From Anaerofustis stercorihominis (GTDB lineage: Bacteria; Bacillota; Clostridia; Eubacteriales; Anaerofustaceae), in the NCBI RefSeq assembly GCF_005844425.1, contig NZ_SPHL01000012.1, positions 1 to 47,674 of the forward strand: a stretch of DNA of 47,674 nucleotides, in the 5' to 3' direction. The translations under genes were made by a program, and so were the position numbers. Shown one piece after another: positions 13,719 to 24,663 of the stretch (its first letter is position 1; the number at the start of each line of letters is the position of its first letter). The notes beneath the pieces were generated by a model. The model saw only the letters and a list, made by a program, of their open reading frames with translations. It made no database searches and was not told the origin of the DNA.

Positions 13719-13747
13719 TTGACATAAACTTTATATATCAGTATAAT
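13719..13747 (+). promoter_or_regulatory. Consensus sigma-A promoter of rex
   Basis: TTGACA (13719-13724) and TATAAT (13742-13747) match both hexamers perfectly with a 17-nt spacer. Such a strong promoter on a regulator gene is plausible only with repression, for which the next feature is a candidate site. Confidence 0.9.
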
Positions 13748-13757
13748 TATACTGATA
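13736..13757. promoter_or_regulatory. Perfect 22-bp palindrome over the rex -10 (operator candidate)
   Basis: Arms TATCAGTATAA and TTATACTGATA are exact reverse complements with no spacer and cover the -10 hexamer. A further TTACTGATA half occurs at 13763-13771. The motif does not match the usual Rex operator (TTGTGA/TTGTTA half-sites with spacer), so either this Rex has different specificity or another repressor acts here. Confidence 0.7.
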
Positions 13758-14443: not shown

Positions 14444-14472
14444 TTGTAAAGTTTTTGATATTATTATATAAT
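14444..14472 (+). promoter_or_regulatory. Promoter of the butyrate operon
   Basis: TTGTAA (14444-14449) and TATAAT (14467-14472) are spaced by 17 nt. It starts right after rex and gives a leader of about 135 nt before thl. Confidence 0.75.
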
Positions 14473-14485
14473 CAAAATATAAATA

Positions 14486-14582
14486 AAACCTTTATTTATA
14501 GGGGTTTAAATAATTAAGTTTATAAAAGTTTGGTAATATATACCGGCTTATATATAAGTTCATAGCTTTGCCTTTTGCTATG
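14486..14582 (+). promoter_or_regulatory. Structured leader of the butyrate operon
   Basis: Two hairpins can form in the untranslated leader. The first has AAACCTTTA (14486-14494) pairing with TAGGGGTTT (14499-14507, two G-U pairs). The second has CATAGC (14561-14566) pairing with GCTATG (14577-14582) with a 10-nt loop, ending ~18 nt before the ribosome-binding site. No T run follows either, so they look like stability elements or regulator contacts rather than terminators. No known riboswitch class is recognised. Confidence 0.4.
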
Positions 14583-14612
14583 ATTAAAGTTTTAAATTTA
14601 GGAGGAAAAAAA

Positions 14613-15794
14613 ATGGCAAATAAAGTAGTTATAGCAGGTGCTTGTCGTACTGCAATCGGTACAATGGGCGGTACATTAAGCACTACACCTGCTGCAAAAT
14701 TAGGTTCAATCGTAATAAAAGAAGCTTTAAAGAGAGCTAATGTTCCGGCTGATCAAGTTGATCAAGTATATATGGGTTGTGTTATCCAAGCTGGCTTAGG
14801 TCAAAACGTAGCAAGACAAGCTTCAATCAATGCTGGTTTACCAATTGAAGTTCCAGCTGTTACTGTAAACGTAGTTTGCGGTTCTGGTCTTAACTGTGTA
14901 AACATGGCTGCACAAATGATTAAAGCAGGGGATGCTGATATCGTTGTTGCAGGTGGTATGGAAAACATGTCAATGGCTCCATATGCAGTAATGAATGGTC
15001 GTTATGGTTACAGAATGAACAATGGTACTTTAGTTGATACAATGGTAAATGATGCTTTATGGGATGCATTTAACCAATATCATATGGGTATTACAGCTGA
15101 AAACATTGCAGAACAATGGAATTTATCAAGAGAAGAATTAGACGAATTTGCTGCTAATTCTCAACAAAAAGCTGTAGCTGCTCAAGAAGCAGGTGCTTTT
15201 GATGATGAAATCGTACCTGTAGAAGTTAAAAAGAAAAAAGAAACAATTATCTTCAACAAAGACGAAGGTCCTCGTCCTGGAACAACAGCTGAAGGTATTG
15301 CAAGACTTCGTCCTGCATTCAAACCAGACGGTGTTGTAACAGCTGGTAACGCTTCAGGTATCAATGACGGTGCTGCTGCTGTTGTTGTAATGAGCGAAGA
15401 AAAAGCTAAAGAACTTGGTGTTAAACCAATGGCTACATGGGTAGCAGGTGCTTTAGGTGGTGTTGATCCTACAATCATGGGTATCGGTCCTGTTGCTGCT
15501 ACAAAGAAAGTTTTAGCTAAAACTGGTATGAGTGTTGATGATTTCGATATTATCGAAGCAAACGAAGCTTTCGCTTCTCAATCAATCGCTGTTGGTAAAG
15601 AATTAGGATTTGACTTAAATAAATTAAATCCAAACGGTGGTGCTATCGCTCTTGGTCACCCAGTAGGTGCTTCAGGTTGTCGTATCCTTGTAACACTATT
15701 ACATGAAATGCAAAAAGCTGATGCTAAAAAAGGTTTAGCAACACTTTGTATCGGTGGTGGTATGGGTTGTGCTACTATCGTTGAAAGAGACTAA
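14613..15794 (+). CDS. thl: Acetyl-CoA C-acetyltransferase (thiolase)
   Basis: Joins two acetyl-CoA to acetoacetyl-CoA, the first step of butyrate formation. It has 393 residues, the usual length. The nucleophile Cys89 lies in VVCGSGLNC, and the C-terminal catalytic elements are [23 protein letters not shown] and [14 protein letters not shown] at 14601-14605 sets the ATG at 14613. It heads a six-gene operon with crt, hbd, bcd, etfB and etfA, downstream of rex. Codons are strongly biased to GCT, GGT, AAC and ATC compared with neighbouring genes, indicating very high expression. Confidence 0.97.
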
Positions 15795-15824
15795 TTTATT
15801 GATTAAATTAAGGAGATTATAAAA

Positions 15825-16595
15825 ATGGGTTTTGTTAGATATGAACAAGATGGTTTTGTAGGAATAGTTACTATTGACCGTCCAAAAGCTTTAAATGCTT
15901 TAAACGAAGAAGTTTTAAAAGATTTAGAAGCTACTTTTGATGCTATTGATTTAGATAACACAAGAGCAGTTATCGTAACAGGTGAAGGTAAATCTTTCGT
16001 AGCAGGTGCTGATATTGCATCTATGAGCACAATGACTGCTGAAGAAGGTGAAGCATTCGGTAAATTCGGTAATGACATCTTCAGAAAAATTGAAACTTTC
16101 CCAATTCCTGTAATCGCTGCTATTAACGGTTTTGCTTTAGGTGGCGGAAACGAACTTGCTATGAGTTGTGATATCAGAATTTGTTCTGATAAAGCATTAT
16201 TTGGTCAACCTGAAGTAGGACTTGGTATTACTCCTGGATTTGGCGGAACACAAAGACTTGCAAGAATTATCGGCGTTGGCATGGCTAAAGAATTAGTATA
16301 TGCTGGATACAACATTAAAGCCGATAAAGCTTTGGAAATCGGCCTTGTAAATGCTGTTTATGCTCCTGAAGAATTAATGGAACAAGCTAAAAAATTAGCA
16401 GGTAAAATTGCTAAACAAGCTCCTATTGCTGTAAGAAATTGTAAAAAAGCAATGAACGAAGGTTTACAAGTAGATATGGATCAAGCTATCGTAATCGAAG
16501 AAAAATTATTCGGAGATTGCTTCAATAGTGAAGACCAAAAAGCAGGCATGAAAGCATTCTTAGAAAAAGGAAAAGCTGAATTCCAAAACAAATAG
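15825..16595 (+). CDS. crt: 3-Hydroxybutyryl-CoA dehydratase (crotonase)
   Basis: Removes water from 3-hydroxybutyryl-CoA to give crotonyl-CoA. A 256-residue enoyl-CoA hydratase-fold protein with both catalytic glutamates present: Glu110 in GGGNELAMSCD and Glu130 in PEVGLGITPGFGGTQRL. The oxyanion-hole region 'SFVAGADIASM' is also intact. AAGGAG lies upstream of the ATG, 30 nt after thl. Third in pathway order, second in gene order. Codon bias is as strong as in thl. Confidence 0.96.
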   Translation: MGFVRYEQDGFVGIVTIDRPKALNALNEEVLKDLEATFDAIDLDNTRAVIVTGEGKSFVAGADIASMSTMTAEEGEAFGKFGNDIFRKIETFPIPVIAAINGFALGGGNELAMSCDIRICSDKALFGQPEVGLGITPGFGGTQRLARIIGVGMAKELVYAGYNIKADKALEIGLVNAVYAPEELMEQAKKLAGKIAKQAPIAVRNCKKAMNEGLQVDMDQAIVIEEKLFGDCFNSEDQKAGMKAFLEKGKAEFQNK

Positions 16596-16616
16596 TGTTT
16601 TAATTTAAGTAAATAT

Positions 16617-16636
16617 AGTCCGGATTTTTCCGGACT
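16617..16636 (+). other. Intercistronic hairpin between crt and hbd
   Basis: Stem AGTCCGGA (16617-16624) / TCCGGACT (16629-16636) with a 4-T loop. It is GC-rich for this genome and not followed by T, so it is not an obvious terminator. It could protect the upstream message or mark a processing site. Confidence 0.6.
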
Positions 16637-16661
16637 TAAAAAAATAATTTGGAGGATAATA

Positions 16662-17498
16662 ATGAAAGTAGGTATTATTGGTGCTGGAGCTATGGGTTCT
16701 GGTATAGCTCAAGCTTTTGCACAAACAGAAGGTTATGAAGTTTGTTTATGTGATATCAATGAAGAATTCGCTGCAAACGGTAAAAAAAGAATTGAAGCAG
16801 GATTTGCTAAAAGAGTAGCAAAAGGCAAAATGGAACAAGCTAAAGCTGATGAAATTTTAGCTAAAATTACAACAGGTGTTAAAGATATCTGTGGTGACTG
16901 CGATTTAATCGTAGAAGCTGTTCTTGAAGTTATGTCTATCAAACAAGAAACATTCCAAGAATTAGATAAAATTTGTAAAGAAGATTGTATCTTTGCTACA
17001 AACACTTCTTCTTTATCAGTTACAGAAATCGGTGCTAAAGTAAACAGACCACTTATCGGTATGCATTTCTTTAACCCAGCTCCTGTAATGAAATTAGTAG
17101 AAGTTATCGCAGGTTTAAATACTCCTGTAGAAATTGTAGACAAAATTAAAGCAATTTCTAAAGAAATCGGTAAAACTCCAGTAGAAGTTGCTGAAGCTCC
17201 AGGATTCGTTGTAAACAGAATTTTAATTCCAATGATTAACGAAGCTGTTGCTATTTATGCAGAAGGCGTTGCCAGCGTTGAAGGTATCGACGCAGCTATG
17301 AAACTTGGTGCTAACCACCCAATGGGACCTTTAGCATTAGGTGACTTAATCGGTCTTGACGTTTGTTTAGCTATTATGAACGTTTTATATGACGAAACTG
17401 GCGACCCTAAATATCGTCCACACACATTACTTAAGAAAATGGTTCGTGGCGGCAAGTTAGGTCAAAAATCTGGTCACGGATTTTATGATTATAAATAG
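16662..17498 (+). CDS. hbd: 3-Hydroxybutyryl-CoA dehydrogenase
   Basis: Reduces acetoacetyl-CoA to (S)-3-hydroxybutyryl-CoA with NAD(P)H. It has 278 residues, the usual length of the short bacterial enzyme. The N-terminal Rossmann fold carries GAGAMGSG (residues 7-14), the catalytic His135 lies in [16 protein letters not shown], and the C-terminal dimerisation domain ends with '[16 protein letters not shown]'. GGAGG lies upstream. It is followed 15 nt later by bcd. Confidence 0.96.
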
Positions 17499-17513
17499 GA
17501 GGATTCAAAACAA

Positions 17514-18653
17514 ATGGATTTTACATTAAGTAAAGAGCATGAAATGGCGAGATCTCTATTCAGAGAATTTGCTGAAACAGAAGTAAAACCTCTAGCTCAA
17601 GAGGTAGATGAAACAGAAGTATTCCCAAGAGAAACTGTTGAAAAAATGCAAAAATTAGGATTCTTAGGAATTCCTATGCCAAAAGAATACGGCGGACAAG
17701 GTTGTGATTCTTTAACATATGCAATCTGTGTTGAAGAATTATCTAGAGTATGTGGTACAACAGGCGTTATCGTTTCTGCACATACATCTTTAGGTGCTGA
17801 ACCAATTAAAAAATTCGGTACACCAGAACAAAAAGAAAAATTCTTAAGACCACTTATCAGTGGTGAAAAACTTGGTGCTTTTGGTTTAACAGAACCAAAC
17901 GCTGGTACAGATGCTTCAGGTCAACAAACAAAAGCTGTTTTAGACGGAGATGAATATGTACTTAACGGTTCTAAAATCTTTATCACAAACGGTAAAGAAG
18001 CTGATACATATGTAATCTTTGCTATGACAGATAAATCAAAAGGAAATCACGGTATTTCTGCATTCATCGTAGAAAAAGGAACACCTGGATTTACATTTGG
18101 TACTAAAGAAAAGAAAATGGGTATCAGAGGTTCTTCTACATATGAATTAATCTTTACAGACTGCAGAATTCCAAAAGAAAATCTTCTTGGTCAAGAAGGT
18201 AAGGGATTTGCTATTGCTATGCAAACACTTGATGGCGGTAGAATTGGTATCGCTTCTCAAGCTCTTGGTTTAGCTCAAGGTGCTTTAGATTCTACAATTG
18301 AATTCGTTAAAGAAAGAAAACAATTCGGTAGACCTATCGCTAAATTCCAAAATACTCAATTCCAACTTGCTGATATGGCAACAAAAGTTGAAGCTGCTAG
18401 ATTATTAGTTTACAAAGCTGCAAGAGCTAAAGATAATCAAAAGAGATTCTCTTTCGAAGCTGCTCAAGCTAAATTATATGCTGCAGAAGTTGCTATGGAA
18501 GTTACAACAAAAGCTGTTCAACTTCACGGTGGATATGGTTACACAAGAGAATATGATGTTGAACGTATGATGAGAGATGCTAAGATTACTGAAATTTACG
18601 AAGGAACTTCAGAAGTTCAAAGAATGGTAATCTCAGGTAACTTATTAAAATAA
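17514..18653 (+). CDS. bcd: Butyryl-CoA dehydrogenase
   Basis: An FAD enzyme that reduces crotonyl-CoA to butyryl-CoA. In Clostridia it works with EtfAB by electron bifurcation, oxidising 2 NADH while reducing ferredoxin. It has 379 residues with acyl-CoA dehydrogenase signatures 'GAFGLTEPNAGTDASGQ' and 'QLHGGYGYTREYDVERMMRDAKITEIYEGTSE'; the glutamate of IYEG (Glu363) is the catalytic base. AGGAGG lies in the 15-nt gap after hbd. Its electron-transfer partner genes follow directly, which supports the bifurcating complex. Confidence 0.97.
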   Translation: MDFTLSKEHEMARSLFREFAETEVKPLAQEVDETEVFPRETVEKMQKLGFLGIPMPKEYGGQGCDSLTYAICVEELSRVCGTTGVIVSAHTSLGAEPIKKFGTPEQKEKFLRPLISGEKLGAFGLTEPNAGTDASGQQTKAVLDGDEYVLNGSKIFITNGKEADTYVIFAMTDKSKGNHGISAFIVEKGTPGFTFGTKEKKMGIRGSSTYELIFTDCRIPKENLLGQEGKGFAIAMQTLDGGRIGIASQALGLAQGALDSTIEFVKERKQFGRPIAKFQNTQFQLADMATKVEAARLLVYKAARAKDNQKRFSFEAAQAKLYAAEVAMEVTTKAVQLHGGYGYTREYDVERMMRDAKITEIYEGTSEVQRMVISGNLLK

Positions 18654-18674
18654 TAGGAAAAGGAGATAATTATA

Positions 18675-19457
18675 GTGAAAATCGTAGTTTGCGCTAAGCA
18701 AGTTCCAGATACAAACGAAGTTAGAATAGATCAAAAAACAGGTACTCTAATCAGAGAAGGCGTACCTGCTATTATGAACCCAGACGATAAAGCTGGTCTA
18801 GAAGCTGCACTTCAAATTAAAGATAAAACAGGTGCAGAAGTAACTGTTATAACAATGGGTTTACCAGCTGCAGAAGAAATTTTAAGAGAAGCTATGGCTA
18901 TGGGTGCTGATAAAGGTGTATTAGTAACAGATAGACCATTCGGTGGTGCTGATACTCTTGCAACATCTAATACATTAGCTGCTGCTTTAAAAACAATGGA
19001 ATATGACCTAATCATCACAGGTAGACAAGCTATCGATGGTGATACAGCTCAAGTAGGTCCTCAAATTGCTGAACATTTAGGAATTCCAAACATTTCTTAT
19101 GTTCAAAAAGTTGTTGAAGTAACAGATGATAGCATCACTGTTGAAAGACAATATGATGATGGTTATCATGTAGAAAAAGCTCAAATGCCTTGCCTAATCA
19201 CAGCTCTTGGCGATTTAAACAAACCAAGATATATGACACCGGGCGGAATCTTTGATGCATTTAAAGAAGACATCCAAATTATTACAAGAAAAGATGTTGA
19301 TATCGCTGATGAAAAAATCGGTAAAGCTGGTTCTCCTACAAATGTTGCTAAATCATTCCCTAAACCTGTTAAAGCTGCAGGTGAAAAAGTTGAATTAGAT
19401 GCTGATGCTTCAGCTGATTACATTTTAGGAAAATTAAAAGAAAAACATATTATCTAA
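18675..19457 (+). CDS. etfB: Electron transfer flavoprotein, beta subunit
   Basis: A 260-residue small subunit of the Etf complex that bifurcates NADH electrons to ferredoxin and Bcd. Begins 'MKIVVCAKQVPDTNEVRID', and includes 'GRQAIDGDTAQVGPQIAEHLGIPNISYV', the ETF beta signature, and 'YMTPGGIFDAF' near the C-terminus. The start codon is GTG, with AAAGGAG 9 nt upstream. It lies between bcd and etfA, all on one message. Confidence 0.96.
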   Translation: MKIVVCAKQVPDTNEVRIDQKTGTLIREGVPAIMNPDDKAGLEAALQIKDKTGAEVTVITMGLPAAEEILREAMAMGADKGVLVTDRPFGGADTLATSNTLAAALKTMEYDLIITGRQAIDGDTAQVGPQIAEHLGIPNISYVQKVVEVTDDSITVERQYDDGYHVEKAQMPCLITALGDLNKPRYMTPGGIFDAFKEDIQIITRKDVDIADEKIGKAGSPTNVAKSFPKPVKAAGEKVELDADASADYILGKLKEKHII

Positions 19458-19482
19458 TTAATTAGGAAAGGAAATTGAAATA

Positions 19483-20520
19483 ATGAGTTTTGAAGAATAT
19501 AAAGGCGTATTTGTCTTCGCACAACAAGTTGATGGTGTTATCAACAATGTTGCGCTTGAATTAACAAGTGAAGCTACAAAGCTTGCTGCTGCTTTAAACA
19601 CAGAAGTTACAGCTGTTCTTTTAGGAAAAGATGTAAAAGGATTAGCTGATGAATTAGCAGCTTATGGTGCTAATAGAGTTTTAGTTGTAGATGATCCTGC
19701 ATTAGAAACATATACAACAGAACCATATGCACATGCTATGGATGAAATTATTAAACAATATAAACCAGATATCGTTCTTTACGGTGCTACTGCAATCGGT
19801 AGAGATTTAGCTCCTAGAGTTTCTGCAAGAGTTGCTACAGGTCTTACAGCTGACTGTACAGTTCTTGAAATCGGTGAATTTAAAAATGCTTTAGGTAACG
19901 TAAACAAAGGTTATGAAGGTAAAATGTTCTTAAACGCAACAAGACCTGCATTTGGTGGTAACTTAATGGCTACAATCGTATGTCCTGACAACAAACCTCA
20001 AATGGCTACAGTAAGACCTGGCGTTATGCAAAAAATTGAACCTAAAGAAGGTGCTAAAGCTAACGTAGAAGAAGTTAAAGTTGACTTTACTAAAAACAAC
20101 AAATATGTAGAAGTACTAGATGTTGTTAAAGCTGTAAAAGACAAAGTTGATATTTCTGAAGCTAAAATCTTAGTATCAGGTGGTCGTGGTGTAGGTAGTG
20201 CTGAAAACTTCAAATTATTAGAAGATTTAGCTGATGCTATCGGTGGTGAAGTTTCTGCTTCAAGAGCTTGCGTTGACGCTGGTTGGGTTCCAAAAGATAT
20301 CCAAGTAGGTCAAACAGGTAAAACTGTTCGTCCACAAGTTTACTTTGCTATTGGTATTTCAGGTGCTATCCAACATGCTGCTGGTATGGAAGAATCTGAT
20401 ATTATCATTGCAATCAACAAAGATGAATCTGCTCCAATCTTCAGCATTGCTGATTATGGTGTAGTAGGCGATTTAAACAAAATCGTTCCATTATTAACAG
20501 AAGCTATTAAGAATGCTTAA
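19483..20520 (+). CDS. etfA: Electron transfer flavoprotein, alpha subunit
   Basis: A 345-residue large subunit carrying the C-terminal FAD domain: 'LVSGGRGVGSAENFKLLEDLADAIGG', 'GWVPKDIQVGQTGKTVRP' and 'AIGISGAIQHAAGM'. No N-terminal ferredoxin domain is fused, unlike some clostridial EtfA. Last gene of the butyrate operon, followed by a strong terminator. No butyrate kinase or phosphotransbutyrylase gene follows. Release of butyrate may therefore use a CoA-transferase, possibly one encoded elsewhere or the one in the convergent operon. Confidence 0.96.
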   Translation: MSFEEYKGVFVFAQQVDGVINNVALELTSEATKLAAALNTEVTAVLLGKDVKGLADELAAYGANRVLVVDDPALETYTTEPYAHAMDEIIKQYKPDIVLYGATAIGRDLAPRVSARVATGLTADCTVLEIGEFKNALGNVNKGYEGKMFLNATRPAFGGNLMATIVCPDNKPQMATVRPGVMQKIEPKEGAKANVEEVKVDFTKNNKYVEVLDVVKAVKDKVDISEAKILVSGGRGVGSAENFKLLEDLADAIGGEVSASRACVDAGWVPKDIQVGQTGKTVRPQVYFAIGISGAIQHAAGMEESDIIIAINKDESAPIFSIADYGVVGDLNKIVPLLTEAIKNA

Positions 20521-20581: not shown

Positions 20582-20608
20582 AAAACCACGTAATATATAC
20601 GTGGTTTT
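20582..20608. terminator. Terminator of the abfD-abfT operon (minus strand)
   Basis: AAAACCACGTA (20582-20592) / TACGTGGTTTT (20598-20608) with a 5-nt loop, T-rich on both sides. It lies right after the stop codon of the minus-strand CoA-transferase gene. Confidence 0.8.
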
Positions 20609-20611
20609 TAT

Positions 20612-21916
20612 TTAGTTATTAAATTTTTCTTTAAATCTGTTTTCGTATTCAATAATCAGTTCTTCTCTAAATTGAGGAGCAGCAATATTGATAAGATTTT
20701 TTGCTCTTGTTCTTAATGTTTCACCTTTTAAATGGGCAATCCCATATTCGGTGACAATATAATCTACATCGGTTCTTGATGTAGTTACAGCACTTCCTTT
20801 TTGAAGAAACGGAACAATTTTTGAAATTGTGCCGTTTCTCGCGGTTGCAGGAAATGCAATTATGGATTTTCCGCCTTTTGAAAAAGCAGAACCTCTTACA
20901 AAGTCAACCTGTCCTCCAATTCCGCTAAACTGTTTTAATCCTATTGCTTCAGCACAAACTTGTCCCATTAAATCAACTTCTAATGCTGAGTTGATAGAAA
21001 TCATATTATCATTTTGTCCTATTACCACTGGATTATTTACATATTCAATATCCATCATACTTACAATAGGGTTATCGTGAACAAAATCATATAATTTTTG
21101 AGTCCCCATTAAAAACGCAACAACCATTTTATTCTTATGTAAAGTTTTCTTTTTACATGTTATTACACCTTTTTCGTATAAGTCAACTACGCCATCAGAA
21201 ATCATTTCTGAATGTATGCCTAAATCCTTTTTATTTGTAAGAAATTTTAACACTGCATCAGGAATAGCACCTATGCCAAGTTGAAGTGTATCTCCGTCAT
21301 TAATTAATTTTGCACAATTTTCTCCTATTTTCATTTCAACATCTGTTATTTTAGGATTTGGAAGTTCTGGAATTTGCTCATCGTGTTCAACTAAGATGTC
21401 AATATCATTAATATGCAAGAAATTATCTCCTAAAGTTCTTGGCATTTTTTTGTTTACTTGTGCAATTGTTAATTTTGCGGCTTGTGTTGTTGGTTTTGTG
21501 TAGTCACATGATGTCCCAAGGGAACAAAATCCATCTTTATCAGGAGGAGAAACAGTAACTAAAGCAACATCAACAGGTAGGGAAGATCTGAAAAGAGTAG
21601 GAATTTGATAAAAGAAGCATGGTGTGAAATCTCCTCTTCCTTCATAAACAGCATCTCTTGTATTCCCTCCAAGAAAGAAAGCATTTAATTTAAAGTGTTC
21701 TTTCATTTCTTCTTTTGCATAAAGAGAATGTCCCATAGGAACAAGTTGAACAATTTCAACATTCTTATATGCTTTATAATTTTCTACCATTTTATCTACA
21801 ATATAAATAGGTTCTCCTACCGCATGGGCAATAACTACTCTATCGTTTGATTTTATATAATTTACAGCTTCCTCAGCGGTCTTTAATTTACTTTTATATA
21901 GTTTATTTATATCCAT
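20612..21916 (-). CDS. abfT: 4-Hydroxybutyrate CoA-transferase (AbfT/Cat2 family)
   Basis: A 434-residue class I CoA-transferase that moves CoA from acetyl-CoA (or butyryl-CoA) to 4-hydroxybutyrate. The acyl-glutamate nucleophile is Glu237 in GIHSEMISDG, and the CoA-site motifs GIGAIPDAV and SGIGGQVDFVRG are intact. Sequence alone does not cleanly separate it from butyryl-CoA:acetate CoA-transferase. Its position 49 nt downstream of abfD favours 4-hydroxybutyrate. Since no other butyrate-releasing gene is in view, it might also act on butyryl-CoA. GGAAAGGAG precedes the ATG. Confidence 0.88.
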   Translation of the reverse strand: MDINKLYKSKLKTAEEAVNYIKSNDRVVIAHAVGEPIYIVDKMVENYKAYKNVEIVQLVPMGHSLYAKEEMKEHFKLNAFFLGGNTRDAVYEGRGDFTPCFFYQIPTLFRSSLPVDVALVTVSPPDKDGFCSLGTSCDYTKPTTQAAKLTIAQVNKKMPRTLGDNFLHINDIDILVEHDEQIPELPNPKITDVEMKIGENCAKLINDGDTLQLGIGAIPDAVLKFLTNKKDLGIHSEMISDGVVDLYEKGVITCKKKTLHKNKMVVAFLMGTQKLYDFVHDNPIVSMMDIEYVNNPVVIGQNDNMISINSALEVDLMGQVCAEAIGLKQFSGIGGQVDFVRGSAFSKGGKSIIAFPATARNGTISKIVPFLQKGSAVTTSRTDVDYIVTEYGIAHLKGETLRTRAKNLINIAAPQFREELIIEYENRFKEKFNN

Positions 21917-21965: not shown

Positions 21966-23414
21966 TTATTCTTTTATATTTGCAATATTTTTTGCAAGTT
22001 CTTTTTTCATATTTAAATTACCTTGTCTTGCTATCATGATTCTTTGAGCTTGAGGTGAGCCTGCTCCGTGTAGGGATTCTGTTCTGTAACCTACTGCTGC
22101 TGTTCCAAGTGTTAGATTTTCTATAAGTCTTAAAATTTTTAGTCTGTCTTTTGTAGGTATATTAGCTACACCTTTTAAATATTTTTCTACGTATTTTCCT
22201 ACAACAGGACTTTCTAAATCTTTTTGTGAAGGAGCTGTAACCATTATTCCTCCTGCAATGTCTTCTGCAAGTCTTGCAATTTCATAAGGATATCTTGTTA
22301 CGTTTTGTTTACATACATTTGCAAGAAGTAAATCAATCATATAATTACCGGACATTGTTTTATATCCTTGAGAAGAACAAGCTATACCACAGCTGTATAA
22401 AGTTTCATTTAGGTGTGTCATTTCAATTAATTTATCTTTTATGTGAGAAGCTTTTGCTGCTCCGTTATATTCTGCAACCACTGCTGCTGCACCTATAAGA
22501 ACATCTCCTACACCAACTTTACATCCTCCGTAAGATTGTCTGTGATAACCTGCAAATCTTTCAACAAGCATTCCTGAAAAATCATATTCTCCATTTAAAA
22601 ATATTCTTTCATTTGGAACAAAAACATTATCAAAAATAACAAGAGCTTCCATTCCTCCAAATTCTGCATTTCCTACATCCATATCAGAATCTTCAAGTTT
22701 TCTGGTGTCACAAGATTGTCTGCCTACAATCATTAAAATACCTTCAGTATCTGTTGGAACCGCAAAGGAAATAGCATAGTCTTTGTCTTGTTCTGTCATA
22801 TTTATCGTAGGCATAACCAAAACTTCATGAGAGTTAACCATTCCTGTTTGATGCGCTTTTGCACCTCTTACAATAACTCCGTCTTCTCTTCTTTCAACGA
22901 CTCTTAAATATAAATCTGGATCTTCTTGTTTAGAAGGAGGAAGTCCTCTGTCTCCCTTAGGGTCTGTCATTGCACCGTCAATAACGAGGTCATTGTCTTG
23001 GCAATATCTTAAGAACTTTTTAAAGTTTTCATGATAATTTGTTCCATGTGCTTTATCTGTTTCGTAAGTTGTACTATATACTGCATTGAATGCATCCATT
23101 CCTACACATCTTTGGAAGCATGATGCTGTTTTTTGTCCGCATAGTCTTTGCATTTTGACTTTTTTAATTAAATCATCTGTGCTTTGATGAATATGTGTAA
23201 ATCTATTTATTTTTCTGCCGTCTTCTAATGTTACTGTCATTAAATCTTCGTATTCCGGCATTTGTGCTAAATCATATGTAGCTCTTACTGAATTCAATGA
23301 AGGTCGTAAAATTGGATTATCTACTGGATTTTCAATTTTTTCTCCAAACATATATACTTGTAAATTTAATTTTCGTATACTTTCGATATATTCTTTACCT
23401 GTCATTAAAGCCAT
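21966..23414 (-). CDS. abfD: 4-Hydroxybutyryl-CoA dehydratase / vinylacetyl-CoA isomerase
   Basis: A flavin and [4Fe-4S] radical enzyme that converts 4-hydroxybutyryl-CoA to crotonyl-CoA by a ketyl-radical mechanism and is oxygen-sensitive. It has 482 residues. The cluster ligands known from the Clostridium aminobutyricum enzyme are all visible: Cys99 and Cys103 (TASCFQRC), His291 and Cys298 (GYHRQSYGGC). The conserved C-terminal 'GYRTESLHGAGSPQAQRIMIARQGN' is also present. First gene of an operon with abfT. The product feeds directly into Bcd/EtfAB encoded by the convergent operon. No 4-hydroxybutyrate dehydrogenase or GABA transaminase gene is in the window, so the source of 4-hydroxybutyrate (GABA or succinate) is open. 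Confidence 0.97.
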   Translation of the reverse strand: MALMTGKEYIESIRKLNLQVYMFGEKIENPVDNPILRPSLNSVRATYDLAQMPEYEDLMTVTLEDGRKINRFTHIHQSTDDLIKKVKMQRLCGQKTASCFQRCVGMDAFNAVYSTTYETDKAHGTNYHENFKKFLRYCQDNDLVIDGAMTDPKGDRGLPPSKQEDPDLYLRVVERREDGVIVRGAKAHQTGMVNSHEVLVMPTINMTEQDKDYAISFAVPTDTEGILMIVGRQSCDTRKLEDSDMDVGNAEFGGMEALVIFDNVFVPNERIFLNGEYDFSGMLVERFAGYHRQSYGGCKVGVGDVLIGAAAVVAEYNGAAKASHIKDKLIEMTHLNETLYSCGIACSSQGYKTMSGNYMIDLLLANVCKQNVTRYPYEIARLAEDIAGGIMVTAPSQKDLESPVVGKYVEKYLKGVANIPTKDRLKILRLIENLTLGTAAVGYRTESLHGAGSPQAQRIMIARQGNLNMKKELAKNIANIKE

Positions 23415-23473
23415 AATATATACCTTCCTTTCGAATGTTTTATGTTAGGGTAGTTGGGTTTTATAATATATAA

Positions 23474-23489
23474 TGCAAATTGCATGCCA
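23474..23489 (-). promoter_or_regulatory. Sigma-54 (-24/-12) promoter of abfD-abfT
   Basis: On the minus strand the sequence is TGGCATGCAATTTGCA. It fits the RpoN consensus TGGCAYR-N4-TTGCW, with GG and GC separated by exactly 10 nt. The -12 element ends ~59 nt before the abfD start codon. Sigma-54 promoters require an enhancer-binding activator, which is not encoded in this window. Confidence 0.8.
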
Positions 23490-23538
23490 ACAATTTTTAC
23501 TGTAAAAAGGCTATGTTTAAACAAAAAGTATATTTTTG

Positions 23539-23552
23539 TTGCAAAAATGCAA
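23539..23552. promoter_or_regulatory. Candidate upstream activator site for the sigma-54 promoter
   Basis: TTGCA-AAAA-TGCAA is a 5-4-5 inverted repeat about 50 bp upstream of the -24 element, followed by a partial second copy (TGCAAAAA at 23553-23560). Position and symmetry fit an enhancer for a sigma-54 activator, although typical distances are somewhat larger. Confidence 0.4.
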
Positions 23553-23563
23553 TGCAAAAATAC

Positions 23564-23588
23564 AAAAAAAAAAGGCGCTGGGCCTTTT
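23564..23588 (-). terminator. Terminator of the polysaccharide deacetylase gene
   Basis: On the minus strand, AAAAGGC / GCCTTTT with a 5-nt loop is followed by a run of about ten T. The stem begins at the stop codon. Confidence 0.8.
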
Positions 23589-24663
23589 AATTTGCAGGTG
23601 AGAATTTTATTTCCGTTGAAAGATTGTCTACTGTATCAAAGGTATATCCTTGTTTTTTTAGTTGTTTTATTACATTGTCAAGCCCGTTTGGCAAACTTTT
23701 ATTTCTGTCAAATACATGAATTAAAACAACTGTTTCTTCATTCCATTTTGCTTGTTTTATTATAATACTATATTGTTTTGTTGAAACTTTTGATATTGTA
23801 TCATTAGGGAATGCATTCCAATCTACATAATCATATCCGTATTCTTTTGACAGTTTTATTATATTTTTGATTACTTTTTTCCCTCCATAAGAGAATGATA
23901 CTGTATTGTTTGTTCCTCCAGGAAATCTAAAAATTCTACAATCATATCCTGTTATGTCTTTAAAGTTTTTTCTGTTTTTTTCTAAATCTTCAATAAAAGC
24001 TTTGGGATTTTTATAAATTTTTTTGTAATCATGAGAATAAGTGTGTAGAGCAAGAAGGTGTCCGTCGTTTACTATTTCTTTAATTATTTTTTCATCTTCT
24101 TTACCTTTTGCAGCATTAAAGAAAAAGGTCGCTTTTACATCATTTTTCTCTAATACGTCTAATACTTCCTTTGTCATTTGTGTAGGGCCGTCATCAAATG
24201 TTAAATAAATTTTTTTTAACTTTATTTTTTGTATGCTGTCGCTATTAATGCTACCTATTGTTAATATATGAAAAGGGATGTTTTTCATTTTAGAAAATGT
24301 TTTTGATAGTGATATTCTTTTTGTATTTGCAAAAGCTATTATTTTTTTATCATTATTACTTTTTATTATTTTGATTTTATTACCTTTATCTATAAATCCT
24401 ATGCATTCATTTCTCTCGTTTGTTAATATACTTTCTTTTACAATAATATAGTTTGAATTTTTATTTCTTTCATAATTTATAGGATTAGAAGAACTTTTGC
24501 TTATTGAAGTTATTTCATTTTTATTTTGTAAAATTTTGCATACTTTGTTATAATTATTACTATACGATATATTTAAAATCCACAAAATGAAAAGGACATA
24601 TATAATAATAAAAAAATATATTAAATTGTTTTTTTTCGTTAGTTTTATTAATAAATTTTTCAT
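23587..24663 (-). CDS. Membrane-anchored polysaccharide deacetylase (NodB/CE4 family)
   Basis: A 358-residue extracytoplasmic enzyme expected to deacetylate peptidoglycan or another GlcNAc polymer. Residues 13-33 are a membrane helix. Residues ~70-120 may form a small SH3-like or beta domain. The NodB domain starts at ~150 with TFDDGP (Asp157, Asp158), the metal ligands HTYSH (His207, His211), and RFPGG (Arg246). The last catalytic motif reads VVLIHVFD instead of the usual LxH-D pattern. No ribosome-binding site precedes the ATG, and an extended -10 lies only 9 nt upstream, so the message may be leaderless. It sits between abfD and two HAD genes without functional link. Confidence 0.88.
   Translation of the reverse strand: MKNLLIKLTKKNNLIYFFIIIYVLFILWILNISYSNNYNKVCKILQNKNEITSISKSSSNPINYERNKNSNYIIVKESILTNERNECIGFIDKGNKIKIIKSNNDKKIIAFANTKRISLSKTFSKMKNIPFHILTIGSINSDSIQKIKLKKIYLTFDDGPTQMTKEVLDVLEKNDVKATFFFNAAKGKEDEKIIKEIVNDGHLLALHTYSHDYKKIYKNPKAFIEDLEKNRKNFKDITGYDCRIFRFPGGTNNTVSFSYGGKKVIKNIIKLSKEYGYDYVDWNAFPNDTISKVSTKQYSIIIKQAKWNEETVVLIHVFDRNKSLPNGLDNVIKQLKKQGYTFDTVDNLSTEIKFSPAN

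Follow-up and report, generated by a model that had tools for sequence, protein, structure and literature searches.

Comparative evidence for a sigma-54 promoter and a predicted XanR site upstream of abfD-abfT in Anaerofustis stercorihominis

The window analyzed here, a 47,674-nt stretch of DNA that is contig C3 of the 2.03-Mb Anaerofustis stercorihominis genome, carries on its minus strand a two-gene unit composed of abfD (21966-23414), encoding a 482-residue 4-hydroxybutyryl-CoA dehydratase, and an abfT-like CoA-transferase gene (20612-21916). Among relatives, the most similar AbfD proteins share 70-90% identity with the abfD product, and residues C99, C103, H291 and C298, which we take to be the expected [4Fe-4S] ligand positions of AbfD, are invariant in our alignment (A1); the HpaB-type family matches of the product fall below the cut-off. 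The second product belongs to the CoA-transferase family, scoring below the butyryl-CoA:acetate CoA-transferase cut-off, and an 84% identical partner comes after abfD in the congeners. Upstream of the unit lies an unrelated gene, a PdaB-like polysaccharide deacetylase by family match (23587-24663, minus strand), whose intrinsic terminator lies at 23570-23588 on the same strand. The position of this terminator between the deacetylase gene and abfD indicates that abfD-abfT is a transcription unit of its own. At the other end, a terminator on the plus strand (20582-20608) lies between etfA and the convergent abfT.

Two sequence elements occupy the region between the upstream terminator and abfD, and a first-pass annotation had described both correctly in position and form: an exact GG-N10-GC element 60 nt before abfD, and a TTGCA-AAAA-TGCAA repeat some 50 bp further upstream. 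The first reads TTGGCATGCAATTTGCA on the minus strand (23490-23474), with a -24/-12 core of TGGCATGCAATTTGCA (23489-23474) that the T at 23490 extends to TTGGCA. It conforms to the sigma-54 consensus TTGGCAY-N5-TTGCW with its 10-nt GG/GC spacing, agrees with TGGCAC-N5-TTGCW at 10 of its 11 specified positions, and has the C of its -12 GC 60 nt before the abfD ATG at 23414. Sigma-54 promoters place the transcript start about 12 nt past the -12 GC, and by this rule the predicted abfD start falls at 23461-23465 on the minus strand. Taken by itself, the promoter string carries only moderate weight and is not rare in the genome: TGGCA-N6-TTGC occurs in 9 copies, compared with 2 for the reversed control, and the other copies are mostly intragenic. 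It is the comparative evidence, not the single-site match, that lifts the abfD promoter above chance.

The second element is the inverted repeat TTGCAAAAATGCAA at 23539-23552 (TTGCATTTTTGCAA as read on the minus strand), a perfect TTGCA-N4-TGCAA palindrome separated from the -24 element by a gap of 49 nt and centered at about -82 from the predicted start, which we predict to be an activator site. Measured from 5' end to 5' end, it lies 63 nt from the -24 element, as against 89-269 nt for exact copies in relatives. One copy at full strength precedes abfD in the window. A putative second site, TTGTATTTTTGCAT at 23552-23565, is offset by 13 bp and matches at 8 of 10 positions; it is weak and may be due to chance. 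At several abfD loci elsewhere (e.g. L131, L124, L132, L176, L183 and L187) two copies stand about 18 bp apart, an arrangement that suggests paired dimers.

The perfect palindrome is found at six places in the genome (control, 0), only two of which are intergenic: the copy before abfD and another between a sigma-54 activator gene, discussed below, and nifU. A wider regulon in this genome, traced through the palindrome, was considered and set aside, the remaining four perfect copies all being intragenic. Contig C85 of the window genome (G000) carries a sigma-54-like site (L090:5875-5890; TGGCATATATTTTGC) 41 nt before an LL-diaminopimelate-type aminotransferase gene, and a 9/10 palindrome (L090:6088-6101) about 200 nt upstream of that site. 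Neither congener has this sequence among its sigma-54-like sites, and this aminotransferase gene could possibly be a further target, or the match could be chance.

The butyrate genes proper, thl-crt-hbd-bcd-etfB-etfA, form an operon on the plus strand of the window (14568-20520; thl ATG at 14613), located after a rex-like gene. No sigma-54-like site precedes this operon in our scan of the window, and by consensus match it has a candidate sigma-A-type promoter, TTGTAA-17-TATAAT, at 14444-14472 on the plus strand. This candidate implies that each branch probably depends on a different sigma factor. The regulatory separation of the branches, as put forward at the outset, is therefore well supported. 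The rex-like gene is itself preceded by a promoter that matches the consensus at 12 of 12 positions (TTGACA-17-TATAAT, 13719-13747), and a perfect 22-bp palindrome, TATCAGTATAATTATACTGATA (13736-13757), overlaps its -10 box and is probably an operator.

The genome contains one intact copy of rpoN, as the first-pass annotation required, and only two strong sigma-54 activator domains. One belongs to a PRD/EIIA protein of the LevR type on contig C44, behind whose gene come a perfect sigma-54 site and a PTS operon. The other belongs to a PAS-AAA+-HTH protein whose gene lies on contig C1 (10192-11622, minus strand) and diverges from nifU-hyp. Its AAA+ domain (PF00158, 231 bits) retains intact Walker motifs (GQTGVGKE and TVFLDEVG) and a GAFTGA-type loop, GSFTGA, and is flanked by an N-terminal PAS domain (PF00989/PF13426) and a C-terminal Fis-type HTH (PF02954). 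Since the LevR-type protein has its own PTS operon and perfect sigma-54 site, the PAS-type protein is left for abfD, and the dedicated activator that had been called for can be named. Its best relatives outside the genus, at 52-53% identity, are encoded beside abfD in genomes G021, G025 (Eubacterium aggregans) and G050 (E. barkeri), and in G021 exact palindrome copies and a sigma-54 site lie between the two genes. Within the family, rpoN and the PAS-type activator occur together only in abfD-bearing genomes, plus one partial genome. We identify this protein as a putative XanR by gene neighborhood, because the genes around its E. aggregans and E. barkeri relatives agree with the published XanR set.

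In the window genome xanR and abfD lie on different contigs, with the palindrome at both places. The pairing of the two therefore rests on orthology, the shared palindrome and elimination. The palindrome precedes abfD and recurs in the xanR-nifU gap in all three genomes of the genus. No sigma-54 site for nifU-hyp is present in that gap, even at 6 of 11 positions, so the palindrome there is more likely to be autoregulatory. The location of rpoN also varies within the genus. In both congeners (L072 and L073) it sits between etfA and abfT, adjoining the butyrate and abf genes; the etfA-abfT gap of the window genome (L035) lacks it, and the sole copy lies in the LevR-PTS cluster on contig C44. This copy is about 25-33% identical to all others compared, and the rpoN copy of G002 is split by a frameshift.

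Comparison of abfD loci bears out the sigma-54 reading. Both congeners keep the palindrome together with TGGCAC(A/G)AGTTTTGCT before abfD, with the sigma-54 element at -79/-80 of the gene. More broadly, we surveyed 80 named abfD loci from GTDB genomes, 79 of which had enough upstream DNA, and counted a sigma-54 site as correctly placed when it lay 30-125 nt before the abfD ATG. Such a site is present at 34 of the 79 loci (reverse strand, 0; within genes, 0; shuffles, 0.35); because related loci are not independent, this and the following figures overstate the number of events, with a clear direction nonetheless. A palindrome matching at least 9 of 10 positions lies upstream of 21 of the 34 sigma-54-positive loci as against 5 of the 45 sigma-54-negative ones (shuffles, 0.24), and an exact copy upstream of 14 of 34 as against 1 of 45 (shuffles, 0). 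Where a XanR-like gene occurs in the fetched flank, 22 of 29 loci have a sigma-54 site near abfD, compared with 12 of the 50 loci without one (Fisher p = 1e-5); at some sigma-54-positive loci, in other words, XanR is absent from the fetched flank. For every one of the 26 linked XanR genes whose products keep GAFTGA, a sigma-54 site precedes abfD or the operon that contains it; in four of these cases the site lies further upstream, before one or more intervening genes. Both elements are thus kept within the genus and far beyond it, and the proposed sigma-54 control of abfD is strongly supported.

Three linked XanR relatives lack GAFTGA, and none of the three abfD genes has a sigma-54 site nearby. 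At these loci (L147, L164 and L201) the regulator beside abfD keeps its PAS and HTH domains with the GAFTGA loop deleted, Walker B is altered in the L147 and L164 proteins, and a sigma-A-like promoter stands near the palindrome, which at L201 is located downstream of TTGCTT-17-TATAAT. The L201 genome (Anaeromicropila populeti) yields no rpoN match; the L147 and L164 genomes do. The arrangement suggests that the XanR regulon may have moved from sigma-54 to sigma-A at these three loci.

The nature of the signal can be considered in light of the genes that would supply the pathway. GABA transaminase was not found in the window genome, where the sole class-III aminotransferase looks like ArgD, and the search for SucD returned nothing beyond an aldehyde dehydrogenase and a ProA-like protein. 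A close 4-hydroxybutyrate dehydrogenase was likewise not found, the genome offering only distant iron alcohol dehydrogenases. GABA, one of the two signals first suggested, is an unlikely one, given that neither GABA transaminase nor SucD was found, and with none of the three supply enzymes found 4-hydroxybutyrate is probably imported, not synthesized. Past the sigma-54 site, the xanR-abfD interval of E. barkeri and E. aggregans (L142 and L146) holds a lactonase-like gene (AhlS/AiiA families, match below cut-off), which hints at a lactone input into the pathway in these species. Together with the missing supply genes, it favors 4-hydroxybutyrate or its lactone over GABA, and we regard either of these putative signals as the more plausible.

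Starting from what is read directly in the DNA (the promoter, the palindrome, rpoN, the activator, their conservation and their linkage), we infer how binding, activation, the signal and autoregulation might be arranged. Sigma-54 RNA polymerase would transcribe abfD-abfT from the -24/-12 element at 23489-23474, with the holoenzyme waiting at abfD as a closed complex. Upon a signal, XanR dimers would assemble roughly 80 bp ahead of the start, on TTGCA-N4-TGCAA (23552-23539), loop to the polymerase and open the promoter by ATP hydrolysis through the GSFTGA loop. The PAS domain, the core of which is well conserved across the XanR group, is probably a sensor for some small molecule connected with the pathway; the likeliest candidates are 4-hydroxybutyrate, its lactone or a CoA product. 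XanR would also occupy the palindrome at its own promoter, probably for autoregulation, control of the divergent nifU-hyp, or both. We consider this reading as a whole very probable. Weighing against it are the unlinked xanR, the short spacing and single full-strength copy of the palindrome, the overlapping sigma-A-like hexamers described below, the presence of the palindrome (9 of 10 positions or better) at only 21 of the 34 sigma-54-positive loci, and the sigma-54-positive loci that have no XanR in the fetched flank.

The part of this reading most exposed to an alternative is the signal. PAS domains are often redox or energy sensors, and XanR might sense the redox or energy state through a PAS-bound cofactor, or some other general signal, instead of a metabolite; this would be compatible with the promoter and activator assigned here. 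The weak PAS matches in the PDB include nitrogen fixation regulatory protein and WalK, the [4Fe-4S] enzyme encoded by abfD is sensitive to oxygen, and abfD is accompanied by nifU-like genes, all of which fit a redox cue. Against this, XanR is strongly linked to one catabolic operon, and the lactonase-like gene within the xanR-abfD unit of E. aggregans and E. barkeri points to a substrate. We therefore view redox or energy sensing as possible, if rather unlikely. A different alternative is that abfD-abfT is transcribed from a sigma-A promoter and that the GG/GC match is a coincidence. The hexamers TTGGCA-16-TATTAT (23463-23490, minus strand) overlap the sigma-54 element and match the consensus at 10 of 12 positions, among the best in the region, but the -10 hexamer is not conserved, occurring at 4 of 35 loci against 8.4 expected. 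In contrast, the -24/-12 element is conserved across genera and phyla and co-occurs with rpoN, the activator and the palindrome, which makes a sigma-A promoter for abfD-abfT highly improbable. That the LevR/PRD protein, the one further strong enhancer-binding protein of this genome, drives a sigma-54-dependent abfD-abfT alone or jointly, making it answer to PTS sugars, is scarcely credible, since that protein has a linked PTS operon with a perfect sigma-54 site of its own, and the abfD palindrome recurs in front of xanR, whose relatives are linked to abfD.

The preferred reading, XanR acting at a sigma-54 promoter, identifies a likely activator and a predicted site for a pathway that turns the neuroactive compound 4-hydroxybutyrate into butyrate, carries a regulon so far predicted for Clostridium over to many further genera, and yields a short list of candidate ligands. 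The three relatives without GAFTGA allow a change of sigma factor within one regulon to be tested directly. As a bolder and distinctly speculative proposal, which we hold to be on balance improbable, the conserved XanR PAS pocket might directly bind 4-hydroxybutyrate (GHB) or gamma-butyrolactone, gut anaerobes such as Anaerofustis might turn on the conversion of GHB to butyrate only in response to an external supply of GHB, and in some Lachnospiraceae this sensor and operator might have been rewired from sigma-54 to sigma-A after GAFTGA loss.

TyrR and Caulobacter NtrC are NtrC-type regulators without GAFTGA and bear here only on the three XanR relatives that lack it, which differ in keeping the XanR PAS, HTH and palindrome beside abfD, with no sigma-54 promoter there. 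The sucD-abfD-abfT-4hbD cluster of C. difficile encodes the same enzymes, with an abfD 75% identical to that of the window, but neither a sigma-54 site nor XanR was found there. Supply genes of its own (sucD- and 4hbD-like) form part of that cluster, and the window genome yielded no close counterpart of them. Other one-component sigma-54 activators act on butyrate-forming genes: CrbR, XcgR and YctR control operons of the crt-hbd-thl-bcd-etf type, and the sites of CrbR, AhcR and XcgR are TGT-N10-12-ACA (PMC6615313). The butyrate operon of the window differs from the targets of this group in having no sigma-54 site.

The closest known system is the XanR regulon itself. Nie, Dong and Yang (2019; BMC Genomics 20:565, PMC6615313) predicted that the enhancer-binding protein XanR, which has a distinct UAS motif, controls abfD-nifU-hyp-ach-golB and acp-caiC-luxEC in Clostridium, and a 2025 survey reported that COG2368, which includes 4-hydroxybutyryl-CoA dehydratase, is sigma-54-regulated mainly in Clostridia. 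The XanR regulon, reconstructed independently, lends support to the pairing of XanR with abfD proposed here. The present case shares with that regulon a predicted sigma-54 dependence of abfD, a dedicated activator and an operon with nifU, hyp and a CoA-transferase gene; the orthologs of the activator in E. aggregans and E. barkeri adjoin abfD-nifU-hyp-abfT, and genes downstream resemble acp, caiC, luxE and luxC by their starts. It differs in that the xanR of the window genome lies on another contig beside nifU-hyp, abfT directly follows abfD, and the activator site is single and close to the promoter; the published regulon is described for Clostridium only, and here it appears in Anaerofustis and beyond. 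Sigma-54 control of abfD by a dedicated activator is thus already published in principle, and ours is a mostly expected example. What is new is the Anaerofustis case, with its missing supply genes, split operon, short spacing and unlinked regulator bearing a palindrome of its own, and the wider spread of the system.
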